IMG/VR virus record: IMGVR_UViG_3300025324_000031
Span: 1 to 23,701 of that record
Origin: a virus
Reading direction: 5' to 3' (one strand)
DNA: 23,701 nt
The notes under the pieces were generated by a model. It had not been told where the DNA came from. It saw only the letters and a list, made by a program, of their open reading frames with translations, and did not search any database. The position numbers and the translations under genes were made by a program. How positions within the stretch are numbered: position 1 is the stretch's first letter; every line of letters starts with the position of its first letter. This document shows, piece after piece, positions 890-13,686 of the stretch.

Positions 890-2692
890 ATGCCTTGGTA
901 CACGCTGGGTTTGGGGAGGAAGCCCCCGAAGATCAGAAACGACTTTTCGCCAGAAGCTTTCGAACGCGCGCTTACTGCTGCTGCATCAAATGTGCAGACC
1001 CGGACGGCTTCCTCTTCTTTTATACCTTCTTCTGAATCTTGGCAGAATGAGGTTTGGGGATACTACGATACGCTAGGCGAGTATCGATACGGTGTTGACT
1101 GGAAAGCGCGTATGATGTCGCGCACACGTCTTTACGCTGCGCGCATTGATCCTACGCAGGATGAACCTATTCGTCTTGATGATAACTCTGTAGCCATTCA
1201 GCTTGTTTCTCGCCTCGGCGGAGCAGTAGACCAGCCTAGCCTGCTTTCTGACATTAGTACACAGCTTGACGTTCCTGGAGAGGGATTTGTCATTGCTGAA
1301 ATGATAGACGGAGTAGAAAATTGGTTTGTTCGATCCCGAGATGAAGTGCGGAAGCGCTCGGGCGTTTTTGAAATAGTAGATGAAGACACGCTTAGCAACA
1401 CGCAGGAATGGCGACCGCTAGCGCCAGACCACTTTGCTATGCGTGTTTTTCATCCGCATAAGCGCTATCACTACATGGCTGACTCTGCTTCCCGGGCTGC
1501 GCGAGGAACCATGCGGGAGCTAGAACTAGTTAACCGGCATATTCTAGCTCAGTATCTATCTCGTCTCGCTTCTGCGGGCGTTTGGTTGGTTCCTGAGGAA
1601 ATTACGTTTCCTACCCGCGAAGAGTTTGCAGACCAACCAGACCCGTTTATGGCTGAGTGGATCGAAATTGCAGCAGAAGCTATCCAAAAGCCGGGAACAG
1701 CTTCTGCTGTTGTGCCCATACCGATGAAGATTCCGGGAGAATGGATATCAGCAGCTAAAGATGGGTTTCTAGACTTCACTCTTAGGATAGATGAACAAGT
1801 CATTGAAAAGCGAGAGTCCGCTATTAGGAGACTCGCGACTCAGATAAACATTCCTGCCGAAATCCTGACTGGCATGGGAGCAGTGAATCACTGGGGCGCA
1901 TGGCAACTAGAAGAAGGCGCGGTGAAAACCGCTATCGCTCCAGATATGGAAGAGATCTGCTCAGCTTTTACTAAGCAGTATCTCCGCCCAAGGCTTGCAG
2001 CGTCCGGTGAAGAAAATCCAAACGACTTTGTAGTATGGTATGACTTGTCTGAGATCACTATTCGTCCAGACAGGTCTGAGAAGGCCATCCAACTCTATGA
2101 CCGTCTTGAGTTGTCGGGCGAGGCTGCTCGTCGTGAAGGCGGCTTTGATGAGTCGGACGCTCCGACCGAAGAGGAACTGAACGAGCAAGCTCTAAAGATT
2201 TTCGTTAGAAATATCCCTGAGGCAGCATTTTCCGCCCTTAAGGAACTTACGGGCCAGGAACTGAATGATCCCGATCCTACGGTTGAGGGTGAACCTCCTC
2301 CAGAAGCAATAGAAGAAGCACCCTCTACAGAAGATCGGACCGAACCGGACACACAGAACGAGCCTCCCCCGCCTCCAGACGTTGCTGCACTCAGAGTAGA
2401 ACGAATGATAAAGCAGGCAAACGAGAGGCATGTTATACAGTTTGACGGACTGGGGCAATGGTCATTGCATCATCCCCACCTTTGCAAGGATCACGCCTAT
2501 TCGTGCCCATTCACTCAGGGCGTGCTTAATCTAAAGCACTCTGTATTTCCTGCTCGTTCCGGCTTGTACGAATGCAATCTTGATGCACAAGGAACAATTC
2601 GGATTGGAGATCAATCACCGCTAGAGAGCACAAAGGGGCTTATATCTCTGGGATGGAAGGGAAAGAAGCTCAATGGGCACAGTGTTCACTGA
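890..2692 (+). CDS. Portal protein
   Basis: At 600 residues this is somewhat longer than most siphovirus portals. The portal is the dodecameric ring at the capsid vertex through which DNA enters and leaves. The call rests on the position at the head of the structural operon, the size, and typical actinophage portal features: an N-terminal YGVDWKARMMSRTRLYAARI segment, a central alpha/beta body, and an acidic Pro/Glu-rich tail at about residues 440-500 (EGEPPPEAIEEAPSTEDRTE). After that tail comes an unusual extra segment (about 515-600) with C532-x2-H535-x3-C539 and C562, which could bind metal. RBS AAGGAGG (879-885) fits ATG 890. The 3' end overlaps the next gene by 20 nt, suggesting coupled translation. 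Confidence 0.85.
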   Translation: MPWYTLGLGRKPPKIRNDFSPEAFERALTAAASNVQTRTASSSFIPSSESWQNEVWGYYDTLGEYRYGVDWKARMMSRTRLYAARIDPTQDEPIRLDDNSVAIQLVSRLGGAVDQPSLLSDISTQLDVPGEGFVIAEMIDGVENWFVRSRDEVRKRSGVFEIVDEDTLSNTQEWRPLAPDHFAMRVFHPHKRYHYMADSASRAARGTMRELELVNRHILAQYLSRLASAGVWLVPEEITFPTREEFADQPDPFMAEWIEIAAEAIQKPGTASAVVPIPMKIPGEWISAAKDGFLDFTLRIDEQVIEKRESAIRRLATQINIPAEILTGMGAVNHWGAWQLEEGAVKTAIAPDMEEICSAFTKQYLRPRLAASGEENPNDFVVWYDLSEITIRPDRSEKAIQLYDRLELSGEAARREGGFDESDAPTEEELNEQALKIFVRNIPEAAFSALKELTGQELNDPDPTVEGEPPPEAIEEAPSTEDRTEPDTQNEPPPPPDVAALRVERMIKQANERHVIQFDGLGQWSLHHPHLCKDHAYSCPFTQGVLNLKHSVFPARSGLYECNLDAQGTIRIGDQSPLESTKGLISLGWKGKKLNGHSVH

Positions 2693-4094
2693 TCCCGCTT
2701 TTCATCTTAGAGGCAGACATGTTCAGCACTCGCACGGAAGAAGCAACACGGAAAGTGCAAAACATCTGTCCGGAGCGATGATTGCTCTCATGCCGAGTGA
2801 AGAAAACGCACAGAGGCTTAGGGTTGGGGGAGGTGAAATAGCGGAACAACTCCACTTGACTCTGTACTTCCTAGGAGAGGGAGCAGACTGGGAGAACCAA
2901 GGACGAGAGAGCCTGACTAACGCTCTTATCGATCGGTTCGCAGAAGAAGGGCCGATTATTGTTCAGGCACGCGCCTTTGGCGTAAGTCATTGGAACGGCG
3001 ACAGAGATAATCCTTGTTGGGTGCTAAGCGTAACTAATCTTCCCGAAGAAGACAGGGAAGAGGATTACACCTCCCTTGAAAAGCTCCGCTCAGTTGTGAC
3101 AGAGACCCTTGAAGCAGAAGAAATAAACATTCCGTCTCAGTACACGCCCTGGGCTCCGCACGTTTGTTTGGCTTATACAGACGATGTGAGTTTGACAGAG
3201 GAACTTCAGAAGCGTCTAGGAGCGATTACCTTCGATCGGGTGCGCGTAGCATTCGCGGGAGACTATACGGATATCCACTTGAACAAAGAAGGGTTGACTG
3301 CTGCCGCTAATCCTCTTCTCAGGCGAAACTTGAATCAGTGGGAGTCCGCTTCTCATACTGACTTCGTTCGGATGCAAGAAGACTGGATGAGTGCAGTAGA
3401 TGCCGCTTGGGCAGACATAGCTCAGATCAGGGACGAGCAGATAGAGAGCTTGGCCTCCCAAGTATTCAATGCGGCTCAGGCTGACGACCTAGACGCACTG
3501 ACTTCTCTTAGCCTTAGCGATACAGCCATTCAAGCAGTCTTGTTTGAACACATGGTCAGTGCTGCGCAGCAGGCCGGAGAGCAGCAGCAGGAAGAAGCTG
3601 AAGCACAAGGCATAGAAGTGCCCGAGTGGACGCTAGAAGAGAGCCTGACTGCTGCTATTGGTCTCAGTCTTCTCCAGTCCATATCCGAGGTAACAGCTCG
3701 CGTCATAAACACATCGTTTATTCAGAGTGCTATCCGTAGGGCGCTGTCTCTGGTTGGTCGTCCTCAGATCAGTTCCGAACAAGTTCGGGAAGAGGTAGAG
3801 GCACATCTAGAGGGGTTGTCCGAGGCTGGCCCAAGAGAGTCCATCGGGGGGGCAATCACATCTGCCCAGAATGAAGGACGTAGGACCGTTCTTGCGGCTG
3901 CACCCGAGGCGAGTCAGTATATTGCCTCGGAGATACTCGACAGGAACGTCTGTCAGCCTTGTAGGCAGATAGATGGAACCACATTCGATACGCTGGCAGA
4001 CGCTACCGAGCAATACCCTTCAGGAGGATTCAGAAACTGTTTGGGTGGAGTTCGATGCCGGGGCACTATCGTAGCTGTATGGGACGGAGAATAG
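2673..4094 (+). CDS. 2H phosphoesterase (LigT-like) fused to MuF-like head morphogenesis protein
   Basis: This 473-residue protein has two parts. Residues ~35-200 look like a 2H phosphoesterase (2'-5' RNA ligase/LigT fold), with motif 1 LHLTLYFLG (H61-x-T63) and motif 2 PHVCLAY (H163-x-C165). The usual Thr/Ser of the second motif is Cys. The family cleaves or forms 2'-5' bonds and hydrolyses cyclic phosphates and cyclic nucleotides. Residues ~215-473 are a helical region ending in a MuF (Mu gpF)-type module: C427-x2-C430, IDGTTF, YPSGGF, then NCLGGVRCRG with C456 and C462. MuF proteins are minor head components near the portal and are carried in the virion. The gene lies between portal and protease, the normal MuF place. 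The MuF part is fairly certain and the enzyme part is good by motif. Its substrate is unknown. Confidence 0.8.
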   Translation: MGTVFTDPAFHLRGRHVQHSHGRSNTESAKHLSGAMIALMPSEENAQRLRVGGGEIAEQLHLTLYFLGEGADWENQGRESLTNALIDRFAEEGPIIVQARAFGVSHWNGDRDNPCWVLSVTNLPEEDREEDYTSLEKLRSVVTETLEAEEINIPSQYTPWAPHVCLAYTDDVSLTEELQKRLGAITFDRVRVAFAGDYTDIHLNKEGLTAAANPLLRRNLNQWESASHTDFVRMQEDWMSAVDAAWADIAQIRDEQIESLASQVFNAAQADDLDALTSLSLSDTAIQAVLFEHMVSAAQQAGEQQQEEAEAQGIEVPEWTLEESLTAAIGLSLLQSISEVTARVINTSFIQSAIRRALSLVGRPQISSEQVREEVEAHLEGLSEAGPRESIGGAITSAQNEGRRTVLAAAPEASQYIASEILDRNVCQPCRQIDGTTFDTLADATEQYPSGGFRNCLGGVRCRGTIVAVWDGE

Positions 4095-6245: not shown

Positions 6246-6372
6246 GCCTCTGTGTCCAGTTTGCTCCTTTGATCAAACAAGTCAAACTAAGTCGTCTTTG
6301 CTCTCTCTAGGAACAGCTTGGTACATTGACAACACAACTGACTTAGCCTGTCCCGTCCATGGAGGGTATGAC
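6227..6372 (+). other. Leader region upstream of the major capsid gene
   Basis: This gene-free stretch lies between the minus-strand promoter and the capsid ATG. It contains small inverted repeats (such as TTTGATCAAA at about 6268) and a TTGACA (about 6327-6332) without a matching -10. A promoter for the highly expressed capsid gene would be expected here, because the terminator at 5923-5966 cuts it off from the upstream operon. I cannot point to a convincing one. Confidence 0.35.
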
Positions 6373-8145
6373 ATGGCTGATGAGCTTTTTTCCGCTCCAT
6401 CGGACCTAACACTTATAAATGATCAAGAACTGAGTGCGCTCGAAGATCAGGGCATCGCGGAGTTTGATCGAGTTCGCTCTCTTGAGGAGGTGACTCCGGA
6501 GCGTGTTCAGTACGCTGCTCAGCTTACGTCAGATCTTGACCGAATCAGGGCAGAGCTTGCCGCCCGCGAAGTTCGTGCACAGCGTCTCGCAGAGCAGGAA
6601 CGGGTACGAAACGCAGATCAGATGACAGCTCTAAACGCTCGCGTCCACGGTCCTGAAGAACCTTCTGAGCCTCTTGAGGGCAAGGTCATGGGAAGCGATG
6701 AAATCGCGGAAGCTGCCGCCAAGGGGGTGACTGCCGCTCTGGTTTCTGTCCTTGGTGAAAGGATGATCCCTAAGCGGACCATCGCCTCTCTGTCTGAGAC
6801 TGCCCAGGTTGCCCCGCAGCCTAAGACTCCTCAGACCAAGCTGAGCATCACTGCGAGTGTTGACATTCCTGGCGTTGCTCCGGGCAACAACATCACCACC
6901 CTGAACTCACTAGGAGAGGCGTTCTCCCGTAAGGCTCGCGCGGTTCCTGTCACTCGTTCAGGTTCTACCGACAACGGGCACACGGTTGCCACTATCAGGA
7001 ACAGTTTCGAACATACGGTTGATGACCGTACATCTCCCGCTCAGGTTGAAGAACTGTTTAACCATCTTCTCAGGCCGGAGCTGAAGAATTCCCTCGTTGC
7101 GGGTGGTGGCTGGTGCGCTCCGTCCGAGATTCGATACGACTTCTTCAACATCGCGTGTGAAGATGGTCTAATCGATCTCCCCACCTTCGGTGTGACCCGA
7201 GGCGGTATTCGGTTCCCCGTTTCACCGTCCTTGGCGGATGCCATCGGTGATAACGCCTTTGGTGGATTTGCTGTTCCATTCTCTAACGCTTCGGTTCCGT
7301 TCCTGTGGACGGAAGCCGATGACATCGCTACAGTCACCGGTTCTCCGAACAAGCCTTGCATGAGGGTCCCCTGCCCGGACTTTGATGAAGAACGTCTAGA
7401 GTGCTACGGCATCTGCCTTACAGCCGGTAACCTTACGGATGATGCATATCCGGAAGCAACCCAGAACACTCTTCGTCTTCTGATGTCGGCTCACGCTCAT
7501 GCCATGAACGCGCGTCTTATCGCGCTCATGGTTGCTCAGTCCTCCGCCCCGATTGCTACGGGTGAGTTTGCGGGCGGTGGAACTCCCGCTACCGCTAAGC
7601 CTGCCTATCAGCAGATTCTTTCCGGACTTGCTCTTGGTGCAACGGACTATCGATCCCGATTCGGTATGTGTATCGATGATGTGATCGAGATAGTTGCTCC
7701 TTACTGGCTCAGGGACGTAATCAGGGCTGACCTTGCGTGGCGTACGGGCGTTGATCTGCTGTCCGTTTCGGATGAGATGATCAACGGCTTTTTCGCTGAT
7801 CGAAACCTTCGTGTCCAGTGGGTGAATGACTGGCAGGTTCGGGGTGCGGGTCAGTTCGGTAACGCAACTCCCATGACTGCCTGGCCTACTACGGTTGATG
7901 TCATGATGTATGCGGCTGGTACCTTCCTGCACGGAAACGGTATGAGCCTGGATCTCGGCGTCATTCGTGACTCGGTTCTTAACGCTGAGAACGACTTCAC
8001 TGCTGCGTGGTCTGAAGAGTGTCACCTCATCGCTCGTGTCGGGCATGAGTCTCGTCAGTACCGAATCACGTTCTCTGTGATGGGTGCGACGACTGTTGCC
8101 AACCTGACTCCGGGTACCCACATCGATCCGTTCCCGAATCTCTGA
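6373..8145 (+). CDS. Major capsid protein (HK97-type) with N-terminal delta/scaffold region
   Basis: The protein is 590 residues from ATG 6373, chosen over upstream starts because GGAGGG (6361-6366) lies 6 nt before it. Residues ~1-105 are charged and strongly helical (DLDRIRAELAAREVRAQRLA), as expected for a delta or internal scaffold domain removed by the maturation protease. No separate scaffold gene is seen nearby. The rest (~130-590) is the shell-forming part, containing LVAGGGWCAPSEIRYD, TRGGIRFPVSP and a C-terminal beta-rich stretch. Gene order after the protease supports the call. It is followed after 22 nt by a gene with an excellent RBS, so the downstream genes share its transcript. 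Confidence 0.88.
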   Translation: MADELFSAPSDLTLINDQELSALEDQGIAEFDRVRSLEEVTPERVQYAAQLTSDLDRIRAELAAREVRAQRLAEQERVRNADQMTALNARVHGPEEPSEPLEGKVMGSDEIAEAAAKGVTAALVSVLGERMIPKRTIASLSETAQVAPQPKTPQTKLSITASVDIPGVAPGNNITTLNSLGEAFSRKARAVPVTRSGSTDNGHTVATIRNSFEHTVDDRTSPAQVEELFNHLLRPELKNSLVAGGGWCAPSEIRYDFFNIACEDGLIDLPTFGVTRGGIRFPVSPSLADAIGDNAFGGFAVPFSNASVPFLWTEADDIATVTGSPNKPCMRVPCPDFDEERLECYGICLTAGNLTDDAYPEATQNTLRLLMSAHAHAMNARLIALMVAQSSAPIATGEFAGGGTPATAKPAYQQILSGLALGATDYRSRFGMCIDDVIEIVAPYWLRDVIRADLAWRTGVDLLSVSDEMINGFFADRNLRVQWVNDWQVRGAGQFGNATPMTAWPTTVDVMMYAAGTFLHGNGMSLDLGVIRDSVLNAENDFTAAWSEECHLIARVGHESRQYRITFSVMGATTVANLTPGTHIDPFPNL

Positions 8146-11451: not shown

Positions 11452-12288
11452 ATGCCGGTTATCAATCCGACTACTCCCACAGGAACGCCTCCGGGGCAGG
11501 GAGCAGACTTCGGACCGTGCCAGAATTGGCCGTACGTCCTCACGTGCGATATCCCTATAGAGGCTGCCCCGATCACCGGCTACGCCATTAGCATGGCGAC
11601 GGATCTTCTCTGGTCTATGACCGGAATGCGATTCGGTCTGTGCACCATAACACTTCGTCCATGTAGACGAGAGTGCTTCGACCCATGGCCCGACGACTGG
11701 CGTATGTGGCCTGCTTCCGGCACCTTTCCTCAGCCTGCGTTGATTGCTGGCCAGTGGTTCAATCTCGTCTGCGGGGGATGCCCGGGTACGTGCTCATGCT
11801 CCTCTGTCTCTGAGTTCCGCCTGCCCTCTCCGGTTCACCAAATCGTAGACATCACTATCGATGGAACACCGCTTGTTACCGGCGCTTACCGCGTGGACAA
11901 CAACCGGCTGGTGGTTCGTGAGGATGGGGGCACTTGGCCTCTGTGCAACGATCTGAGCGCCCCGGACGGAGCAGAAGGCACCTGGACAGTCACAGCTGTT
12001 TTCGGGGAGCCTGTGCCCGATGGAGCGGCTTTGGCCATGGGCGAACTCATATGCGAAATCATCCGTGGCGCACTCGGCGGTGACTGTCGCCTACCGGCTG
12101 GTGTGCAGCAGCTTGTCAGGCAGGGCGTAACGATTCAGTTCCCGGATGTGGGGGAGCTGTTCAGGCAAGGGAGAACCGGTCTCTACCTTGTAGACATGTT
12201 TATCAACACGTGGAATCCCTACGGGCTCAGACAGAAGTCCAGAACGTATAGGGTGGATCAGCCCGAGGTTCGGAGAACGAATACATAG
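11452..12288 (+). CDS. Head-to-tail adaptor (connector) protein
   Basis: This 278-residue protein has a Cys-rich first half (residues to about 125). The second half is typical of actinophage adaptors: SPVHQIVDITIDGTPL, AYRVDNNRLVVREDGG, TWTVTAVFGEPVPDGA, a helical segment, then DCRLPAGVQQLVRQGV. Such proteins form the ring under the portal. A short AGGAGT ribosome site precedes ATG 11452. The gene ends directly at a 40-bp palindrome carrying a parS-like core. It closes the capsid-to-adaptor transcript. Confidence 0.75.
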   Translation: MPVINPTTPTGTPPGQGADFGPCQNWPYVLTCDIPIEAAPITGYAISMATDLLWSMTGMRFGLCTITLRPCRRECFDPWPDDWRMWPASGTFPQPALIAGQWFNLVCGGCPGTCSCSSVSEFRLPSPVHQIVDITIDGTPLVTGAYRVDNNRLVVREDGGTWPLCNDLSAPDGAEGTWTVTAVFGEPVPDGAALAMGELICEIIRGALGGDCRLPAGVQQLVRQGVTIQFPDVGELFRQGRTGLYLVDMFINTWNPYGLRQKSRTYRVDQPEVRRTNT

Positions 12289-12328
12289 CTAAGGGCCCTA
12301 TGTTTCACGTGAAACGTAGGGCCCTTAG
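12289..12328. terminator. 40-bp palindromic, bidirectional terminator containing a parS-like site
   Basis: The left arm (12289-12308) and right arm (12309-12328) are reverse complements over 20 bp with a single mismatch that can pair as G-U. The arms begin CTAAGGGCCCTA and meet in GTTTCAC/GTGAAAC. It starts at the base after the adaptor stop codon and lies 7 nt past the stop of the opposite-strand gene at 12336, so it can terminate both. Confidence 0.75.
12302..12315. promoter_or_regulatory. parS-like centromere site 1
   Basis: GTTTCACGTGAAAC is an exact 14-bp match to the chromosomal parS core bound by ParB in Streptomyces and other bacteria. The flanking bases are T on the left and G on the right (the 16-bp consensus has A on the right). 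It lies at the centre of the hairpin at 12289-12328. Actual binding by ParB is inferred from the match alone. Confidence 0.6.
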
Positions 12329-12335
12329 CGTTTGA

Positions 12336-12545
12336 TCACTGGCCCCAAACCTTAGGCAGTCTGTTGTCCCACATCTCCCCAGGCAGAGTCTTCAGCCACT
12401 GAGCAACCATCTCGGCAGCTTCGCCAGCATCGCACGGGGGCTCTTCCCCTCGATCGGTAAAGCGCTGCGTCCAAAACTCGACCATCGTTCCTGCTGCGTC
12501 CAAAAGCTCAGCCGCTACAGCTTGCTTTGTCTCACGCTTGCCCAC
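12336..12545 (-). CDS. Small hypothetical protein (opposite-strand cassette)
   Basis: The gene encodes 69 residues and starts with GTG 12545 behind GAGAGGA. The protein is largely helical (AVAAELLDAAGTMVEFW, then AGEAAEMVAQWLKTLPGEMW) with two Trp-rich ends. No family is recognised. It has its own promoter at 12577-12605, shares the 20-bp promoter element with the gene at 5993-6181, and ends at the palindromic terminator with the parS-like core. It is a stand-alone cassette between the adaptor gene and the holin-like gene. Confidence 0.7.
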   Translation of the reverse strand: MGKRETKQAVAAELLDAAGTMVEFWTQRFTDRGEEPPCDAGEAAEMVAQWLKTLPGEMWDNRLPKVWGQ

Positions 12546-12566
12546 GGTCTTTGTTCCTCTCGATCA

Positions 12567-12586
12567 ATTTAGCTAAAGCCTACCGG
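12567..12586. repeat. 20-bp promoter element, copy 2 (possible operator)
   Basis: This is an exact second copy of the element at 6207-6226, including the TTTAGCTAAA palindrome (12568-12577), again overlapping the -10 and start region of a minus-strand promoter. Confidence 0.65.
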
Positions 12587-12605
12587 TCAATACTAGGACT
12601 GTCAA
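12577..12605 (-). promoter_or_regulatory. Promoter of the 12336-12545 gene
   Basis: On the minus strand the -35 is the consensus TTGACA (12605-12600), followed by a 17-bp spacer and the -10 TAGGCT (12582-12577). Confidence 0.8.
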
Positions 12606-12618
12606 GTACACTGAAGAG

Positions 12619-12861
12619 ATGAGGCGTACTACCCGAAGAACTGCGTACACTGTAATTCAGGCAGCCATCGGACTTATCATAGCCTTCCCTATCCTGATAG
12701 ACGCTGCGGGCGTCTCCGAAACACTGCCTGGCATAGGCGTTGCATTGGCTGTGTCTGGTTTTACAACTCGACTTATGGACATCCCCCAAGTTCAAAGCCT
12801 ACTAGCGCATCTCGGTTTGTGTGACAGCGAACACTGCGGAAGAGGAGAAGACGAGGAATGA
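12619..12861 (+). CDS. Holin-like small membrane protein
   Basis: This 80-residue protein has a basic N-terminus (MRRTTRRTAYT), one clear membrane segment (about residues 12-33, IQAAIGLIIAFPILIDAAG), a second weaker one (about 37-53, GIGVALAVSGFTTRLM), and an acidic tail with DSEHCGRGEDEE. This layout fits small phage holins, which permeabilise the membrane and release the lysin. It sits 10 kb upstream of the amidase, inside the connector region, which is unusual for a holin. It overlaps the next gene by 4 nt (ATGA), so the two are translated together. Another membrane role is possible. Confidence 0.6.
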   Translation: MRRTTRRTAYTVIQAAIGLIIAFPILIDAAGVSETLPGIGVALAVSGFTTRLMDIPQVQSLLAHLGLCDSEHCGRGEDEE

Positions 12862-13367
12862 TTTCAGGACCAACTAAATGGTATGTCCTAGCCGAATCTT
12901 TGAGGCAAGCTATTCATAACGATTTGACCGTGAAACCCGATCGTTCAGGCGTAGTCCCTGCTGCGATTGCCTGGGATGAGTGCGACTGTGGTCTTCTAGC
13001 AGTCACCTACGCTCAGATCTACCCAAGCGAGGTTTTCCCAGACTTGCTAAACAACCCTTCGGGCAACTGTGACGCGAGCGTAGAAGTTGGCGAACTTATC
13101 ATCCAACTGATTCGCTGCGCTCCTAACCCTGGCACCGATCCTCTAGGAAACGACCTAGCCCCTTCCGTTTCTGCTCTGGACACTTCAGCACAAGAGATTC
13201 TACGGGACGCTTATGAATTGATCACGTCCGTCAGAACTACTCTCTGTCAGTTCGAGGACGACAGAGACATTTCTGCCTACCTTCTTCGTCCACTAGTCCC
13301 CCAGGGTCCTTCGGGTGGATGCGTAGGCAACGAACTGAGAGTGTTTGTCGGTCTACTGAGGGGATGA
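12858..13367 (+). CDS. Tail-terminator-like / connector protein
   Basis: This 169-residue protein resembles actinophage tail terminator or stopper proteins. It has GVVPAAIAWDECDCGLLAVT, YPSEVFPDL, a helical region (EVGELIIQLIRCAPNPG), and a C-terminal beta strand ending GNELRVFVGLLRG. Such a ring closes the top of the tail tube and joins it to the head. Its place after the adaptor and before the neck protein supports this. It is translated from an ATGA overlap with the holin-like gene and ends 1 nt before the second palindromic terminator. Confidence 0.65.
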   Translation: MISGPTKWYVLAESLRQAIHNDLTVKPDRSGVVPAAIAWDECDCGLLAVTYAQIYPSEVFPDLLNNPSGNCDASVEVGELIIQLIRCAPNPGTDPLGNDLAPSVSALDTSAQEILRDAYELITSVRTTLCQFEDDRDISAYLLRPLVPQGPSGGCVGNELRVFVGLLRG

Positions 13368-13368
13368 G

Positions 13369-13428
13369 CAAGGGGCTATGTTCCTCAGAACACGCTAGCG
13401 CGTGTTTCACGTGAAACATAGCCCCTTG
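13369..13428. terminator. Compound hairpin, bidirectional terminator containing a perfect parS
   Basis: The outer arms CAAGGGGCTATGTT (13369-13382) and AACATAGCCCCTTG (13415-13428) pair perfectly. Inside, AACACGC (13389-13395) pairs with GCGTGTT (13400-13406) as a second hairpin that competes with the parS palindrome for the same bases. The element lies between the stops of two convergent genes (13367 and 13433). Confidence 0.7.
13403..13418. promoter_or_regulatory. parS-like centromere site 2 (perfect 16-mer)
   Basis: TGTTTCACGTGAAACA is a perfect 16-bp palindrome and a full match to the bacterial parS consensus. It is 1.1 kb from the first copy and again lies within a hairpin at a convergent gene junction. 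Binding by a host ParB is an inference. Confidence 0.65.
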
Positions 13429-13432
13429 AAAG

Positions 13433-13654
13433 TCAGAGCATGTCTTTGACCCTAAGAGGAAGCCCAATCATACGGTCTGGTGTGAACGGGCCAGCTTCAT
13501 TACCCGCATCCGTACGAATGGTGAAGCTGACTTCCAAGACACGAACGAGGTAGCCAGTGATACAACCCAAGGCGTTATCCCATTCGATAGCGATCCTCAA
13601 GTCTTCGCCCGGAGCGAGGCTGTTCTTCATCTCGCGAAGCTTCTCAATATCCAT
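13433..13654 (-). CDS. Small hypothetical protein
   Basis: The gene encodes 73 residues starting MDIEKLREMKNSLAPGEDLR. ATG 13654 is chosen because AGGGAGA lies just upstream. An earlier in-frame ATG at 13669 overlaps that ribosome site. A helical start is followed by beta strands (LRIAIEW, CITGYLVRVLEVSFTIR), suggesting a small beta-barrel-like fold. It has its own promoter at 13687-13715 and a conserved leader, and is the last of a four-gene minus-strand island. Its function is unknown. Confidence 0.65.
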   Translation of the reverse strand: MDIEKLREMKNSLAPGEDLRIAIEWDNALGCITGYLVRVLEVSFTIRTDAGNEAGPFTPDRMIGLPLRVKDML

Positions 13655-13686
13655 TATTCTCCCTTTCATCTGTGTTCCTGCTCCTA

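Follow-up and report, generated by a model that had tools for sequence, protein, structure and literature searches.

Chromosomal-type parS sites in a phage late region: putative orphan centromeres for host ParB

Having loaded at its parS site as a CTP clamp, the ParB protein spreads and brings in both ParA and SMC (PMC12511625, PMC7022226). The consensus of the chromosomal parS is TGTTTCACGTGAAACA, with the core GTTTCACGTGAAAC, and in Streptomyces and other bacteria such sites are clustered near oriC alongside a parAB system (PMC7022226). The phage DNA described here contains the identical 14-mer, although it has no parAB system. Partition sites can also occur on mobile elements apart from partition genes, as in the island SGI1, which has parS copies and no Par proteins and whose exploitation of the ParABS of an IncC plasmid has been demonstrated (PMC10954446). 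Like SGI1, the phage is a mobile element that has two copies of parS and lacks Par proteins; it differs in that SGI1 is an island that depends on the ParAB of another replicon, a plasmid, and on a different parS sequence, whereas the phage carries the chromosomal parS. Extrachromosomal prophages and phage-plasmids likewise have centromere-like sites on a phage genome, but partition proteins and sites of their own serve them, and the present phage encodes no such proteins.

A closer parallel is offered by phi29, a virulent phage without par genes but with a parS-like site in its genome. Host ParB reportedly acts on its DNA, and Spo0J (ParB) is said to have been found by Meijer et al. in 2005 (EMBO J) to help the entrapment of the phi29 genome in spores of B. 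subtilis. Virospores are also treated in PMC9429907. The two phages are unrelated, and phi29 has a single site, located in coding sequence, whereas the phage described here has two intergenic, hairpin-borne sites, and probably belongs to an actinobacterial host. The author of an earlier note on this DNA knew of no described system of exactly this kind; SGI1 with its IncC partner and the reported case of phi29 with Spo0J are both precedents. A general account of host-type parS in phages was not found in the open-access papers searched, and an earlier description is possible outside them.

Two parS sites between convergent late genes

The window analysed, 23,701 bp in length, is an entire IMG/VR record and therefore a genome fragment. 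Its proteins include portal, head protease, major head (6298-8145, plus strand; phrog_777), tail, adaptor, tape-measure, and endolysin proteins, and it had no match to named phages in a nucleotide search or to Rfam. A single protein encoded at 2673-4094 (plus strand) matches an RNA ligase profile in its N-terminal part (residues 26-204), and its C-terminal part (396-472) is of the head maturation protease type.

A motif scan of the whole window located GTTTCACGTGAAAC exactly at 12302-12315 and 13404-13417, the two places given in the earlier note, and no further copy even when three mismatches were allowed. The expectation calculated from base composition is about 8e-5 copies in the window, in agreement with the earlier estimate of about 0.0001; with some 1e-4 expected against two observed, and with control palindromes lacking in phages and IMG/VR, a chance origin was ruled out. 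Copy 1 (12302-12315, unstranded) has the left flank AT and reads TGTTTCACGTGAAACG when extended, matching 15/16 of the extended consensus, the last outer position being G rather than A. Copy 2 (13403-13418, unstranded) is the exact 16-mer TGTTTCACGTGAAACA. The 14-mer is identical to copies in Streptomyces chromosomes, and the assignment to the chromosomal type made in the earlier note holds; judged by sequence, both sites are genuine chromosomal-type parS.

Each copy lies directly 3' of a late gene, with a small minus-strand ORF facing that gene. Upstream of copy 1 is the head-tail adaptor gene (11452-12288, plus strand; phrog_783), which converges with an ORF at 12336-12545 (minus strand; phrog_18336, function unassigned in PHROG); upstream of copy 2 is a gene at 12858-13367 (plus strand; phrog_810, function likewise unassigned in PHROG), which converges with an ORF at 13433-13669 (minus strand) without a family match. 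A strong hairpin is present at both junctions. The first (12288-12329, unstranded) is centred on parS, with 13-bp outer arms GCTAAGGGCCCTA/TAGGGCCCTTAGC and a fold of -36.3 kcal/mol (z -8.9), and is a probable bidirectional terminator between the convergent genes. The second (13369-13428, unstranded) has 14-bp arms CAAGGGGCTATGTT/AACATAGCCCCTTG and a fold of -38.8 kcal/mol (z -5.6); its right arm overlaps parS and its loop holds an extra ~24 nt, so that its centre is off parS, which is itself intact. Neither stem is followed by a T-run, and a terminator scan does not list the hairpins; actinobacterial terminators are often without a T-run.

This arrangement invites the explanation that the sites are intrinsic terminators and nothing else, with the palindrome as the apex of bidirectional terminator hairpins and the match to parS irrelevant. 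The position of both copies in strong hairpins between convergent genes is what such an explanation predicts, although the off-centre hairpin of copy 2, with its intact parS, fits it poorly, and the comparisons given below reduce it to a very improbable account.

Almost every named relative of the head protein and of the adaptor comes from a phage of Actinobacteria, with less than 40% identity among the matches listed. The proviruses nearest by head protein (56-64% identity) are all in Streptomyces, and because of this the host is probably a Streptomyces-like actinobacterium. Five of those Streptomyces genomes contain 7-26 exact copies of the site each, against 0 for a reversed control.

Partition genes were sought by domain searches, whose controls were positive. 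No ParB_N or ParA domain occurs within the window, consistent with the earlier remark that neither parA nor parB was visible there. Neither the window nor any of 28 family records (29 in total, of which the window is a fragment and the nearest relative is 56 kb long) has a ParB_N match, and no ParA, sought as an AAA_31 match, was found in the 12 records tested. Phage-encoded ParB or ParA was accordingly rejected, neither gene having been found in the family records searched, and the window phage carries parS as an orphan site. No tyrosine integrase was detected in the parS-bearing records tested.

Conservation of the 14-mer among related phages

The nearest relative, IMGVR_UViG_3300009985_000001 (G001; 56 kb), has a major head protein 92% identical to that of the window phage. 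It contains two copies of the 14-mer, exactly at both orthologous junctions, one after the adaptor gene and one after the gene matching 12858-13367. The adjoining genes share 80% and 71% nucleotide identity with those of the window, but at third positions the figures fall to 52% and 44%, and unconstrained DNA is therefore near saturation, yet parS is identical at 14/14 positions at both junctions. The hairpin arms, in contrast, differ at copy 1 (GCTAAGGGCCCTA.. in the window, GAGAAGCCC.. in G001) and at copy 2 (CAAGGGGCTATGTT.. and AAAGGGACCAT.., respectively), and the stretch between the two sites is rearranged. At junction 1 the parS block is the sole exact 14-mer block in common; at junction 2 it is among few, and at least one more short block is shared beyond it. 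The probability that both sites survived neutrally is ~1e-9, a rough guide in which each junction is represented by one well-diverged relative only, G001. Since the 14-mer is kept while flanks and hairpin arms diverge, the comparison indicates that the 14-mer itself, beyond any terminator, is maintained by selection as a DNA sequence.

In a more distant relative, G002 (head protein 77% identical), both corresponding junctions have ordinary hairpins that lack the 14-mer, which is the other observation in favour of terminators alone. G002 nevertheless contains one exact 14-mer in the first codons of the portal gene, in frame (..GRSPQVSRETAGIL.., ..SPQVSRETAG..) and still bordered by the short arms ATCCCCGC/GCGGGGAT; a copy within coding sequence, where a terminator would do harm, speaks against that explanation, and its relocation implies that the position is free while the sequence is fixed. 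Conservation of the 14-mer at the same junctions in relatives with diverged flanks, the check proposed in the earlier note, is thus seen in G001, at both, and is missing in G002, at both. Loss of the 14-mer with retention of the hairpin, which the note had taken as a sign that only the terminator matters, is seen at the G002 junctions but not across its genome, where the exact copy persists in the portal gene. The wider survey is also unfavourable to terminators: across other phages, parS is flanked by arms of at least 7 bp at only 4 of ~300 sites, against 0.5 expected, so that a general association of parS with hairpins is weak. Two unrelated Gordonia phages, Woes and PatrickStar, resemble the window phage in having the exact 18-mer or 14-mer in an extended intergenic hairpin, although theirs lies between co-directional genes at the right genome end. 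The terminator as the whole explanation was rejected on the combined grounds of the differing arms in G001, the portal-gene copy in G002, and the rarity of hairpins elsewhere.

The 14-mer was found in G001, G002, and the contig G014, which is identical to G002 over the 1.2 kb compared; it was absent from the other 27 relatives searched whole and from 62 proviral loci comprising 1.2 Mb of sequence. The parS-bearing clade has a GC content of 52-57%, and the other relatives and the Streptomyces proviruses mostly ~66-70%. These high-GC relatives, the proviruses included, have no site near the capsid genes, and the site is therefore not required by the entire family.

Several other features of the relatives were recorded. 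G001 (L311 7043-12430 and L312 11098-12798) has a cluster of glycosyltransferases, two nucleotide-sugar epimerases, and a gene whose FtsK/SpoIIIE-like product carries a winged helix at its C-terminus and is found again in several relatives. A link between this gene and parS was considered and rejected, the gene being present also in relatives without parS. At the junction after the adaptor gene, G013 (IMGVR_UViG_3300044698_000167; L318) has a mini CRISPR-array-like stretch at ~6615-6460 on the minus strand, in which three copies of (AT)CCCCGCGTGCGCGGGGAGCAG occur with a period of 61-62 nt, as in a type I-E repeat plus spacer.

Recurrence of host-type parS in phages and its possible role

Host-type parS is present far beyond this family. 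The exact 18-mer ATGTTTCACGTGAAACAT is carried by at least 120 contigs of IMG/VR, where the reversed palindrome is absent, and by 155 of 50,697 phage records (2.3 Gb), where ~0.03 would be expected by chance; matches of 16-18 bp occur in 315 of these records, and none of three control palindromes occurs in any. In an unbiased sample, 94 of 148 matches to the 14-mer also have the outer T and A, against ~9 expected by chance. Raw carrier counts are inflated by multiple records of one phage group and by possible host contamination, and some Listeria and faecal "phage" records that lack annotation may in fact be host chromosome, which does not affect the conclusion. Among plasmids, at most 18 of 72,556 records (7.3 Gb) carry the site, some of them chromosome-sized, and it is absent from 5,426 E. 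coli genomes (28 Gb). E. coli is not known to have a chromosomal ParB. Rarity on plasmids and absence from E. coli together fit a dependence on host ParB.

The 22 carriers inspected include phi29-like Picovirinae, Herelleviridae of Listeria and Lactobacillus, microviruses, an inovirus, and phages of Gordonia, Microbacterium, Arthrobacter, Clavibacter, Rhodococcus, Ruegeria, and Butyrivibrio. The site is intergenic or at a gene border in 15 of them, and a ParB_N domain is missing in 19; the same domain is missing in 43 of 50 IMG/VR carriers, many of which are fragments. Even the 4-6 kb single-stranded microviruses Spiroplasma phage 4 (M17988.1) and phi-CA82 (HQ264138.1) contain the exact 18-mer, and the inovirus bajarodino virus 3 (PQ006097.1) has six exact parS in 6.2 kb, against 0 for the control. 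Among phi29-like phages, B103, Goe1, hmny2, and Chedec 11 keep the gene 15 codons GTT TCA CGT GAA ACA exactly, and phi29 itself reads ATGTTTCACGTGGAACAT, with one mismatch, while third positions of gene 15 are only 41-53% identical in diverged pairs; at the level of sequence, this gene is a second independent case of selection on parS.

As the copies are under selection and recur in many unrelated phages, parS-bearing phages in general probably borrow host ParB. Loading of host ParB on the sites of the window phage is considered very likely, a judgement based on the genome-wide pattern and on their sequence identity with sites of the host. After infection, the protein would load on the phage parS as a CTP clamp, spread across several kb of phage DNA, and be able to recruit ParA and SMC. 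Given what ParB does at parS, a phage genome with such a site should acquire a coat of ParB and share the positioning and segregation of the nucleoid. If lysis were delayed, the unintegrated genome would be tethered to the host nucleoid and partitioned with it, and in a Streptomyces-like host, where ParB drives segregation into spores, this would bring it into spores. Many carriers elsewhere infect non-sporulating hosts, so that spores are not the general reason. We therefore regard the two window sites, with somewhat better than even confidence, as orphan viral centromeres that load host ParB so that the phage genome is segregated with host DNA. Segregation or positioning as the benefit, as opposed to condensation or sabotage, is judged an even chance, and SMC is perhaps involved at the sites. 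The broader view that phages of many kinds (tailed phages both large and small, single-stranded microviruses, and inoviruses) in hosts with chromosomal ParB have repeatedly and convergently acquired host-type parS as a cis-element, avoided by plasmids and serving as a borrowed centromere, with the window phage as an instance in terminator-like hairpins, is likewise favoured, though well short of certainty.

Three other uses of the sites were weighed. In the first, which appears unlikely, no dormant state is involved and the sites act during the lytic cycle, loading ParB and thereby SMC-ScpAB to disentangle, compact, or place replicating DNA for packaging. ParB-parS recruits SMC in several bacteria (PMC7022226), ParB and SMC affect each other's complexes in S. 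venezuelae (PMC12511625), the window sites lie in a late, structural region, and parS occurs in lytic phages of non-sporulating hosts, even in microviruses and inoviruses; however, genomes of 4-6 kb are hardly in need of compaction by SMC, and no phage coupling gene was seen. A second and still less probable use is that of a decoy, in which ParB is titrated by the many copies of the replicating phage and host segregation suffers, in the manner of centromere-type incompatibility, to the benefit of the phage. Extra parS copies do destabilise the resident replicon in the SGI1/IncC system (PMC10954446), and the phage copy number in replication would supply many sites per cell. Against this, the five Streptomyces genomes already hold up to 26 exact copies and parB is non-essential in Streptomyces (PMC7022226), so that the gain would be small, and one or two sites per phage genome make a weak decoy.

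The third use, to which very little credence is given, is self-labelling, in which ParB-coated phage DNA resembles the chromosome and escapes Wadjet/MksBEFG-like SMC nucleases that target extrachromosomal DNA. The far higher frequency of parS in phages than in plasmids and the lack of a tyrosine integrase in parS-bearing records would suit it, but the link to defence is without direct support and plasmids should need such a label at least equally. The plasmid collection is, in addition, dominated by enterobacteria.

If borrowing of host ParB as a centromere-binding partner is correct, phage genomes would commonly have ParB, and perhaps SMC, as a partner, phi29 being no isolated curiosity, and lytic phages would possess a cheap way to persist in dormant or dividing cells and to enter spores. 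Suitable model systems are phi29 and B103 in B. subtilis, phages of Gordonia and Microbacterium, and Streptomyces phages, and ChIP-seq or imaging studies of segregation in infected cells would need to allow for viral parS sites.

Among the individual carriers, many Microbacterium phages have parS within the coding sequence of an HTH DNA-binding protein, and KaiHaiDragon (NC_048020.1) also encodes a protein of the ParB_N type (297 aa frame at 49017-49274). Several copies of parS are found in related bajarodino records as well. Additionally, two parS-bearing PLSDB "plasmids" of ~18 kb from Enterococcus faecium, NZ_CP019991.1 and CP063571.1, are of the size of the phi29-like Enterococcus phage CUB-FM (18,153 bp), which has parS too, and may be phage genomes.
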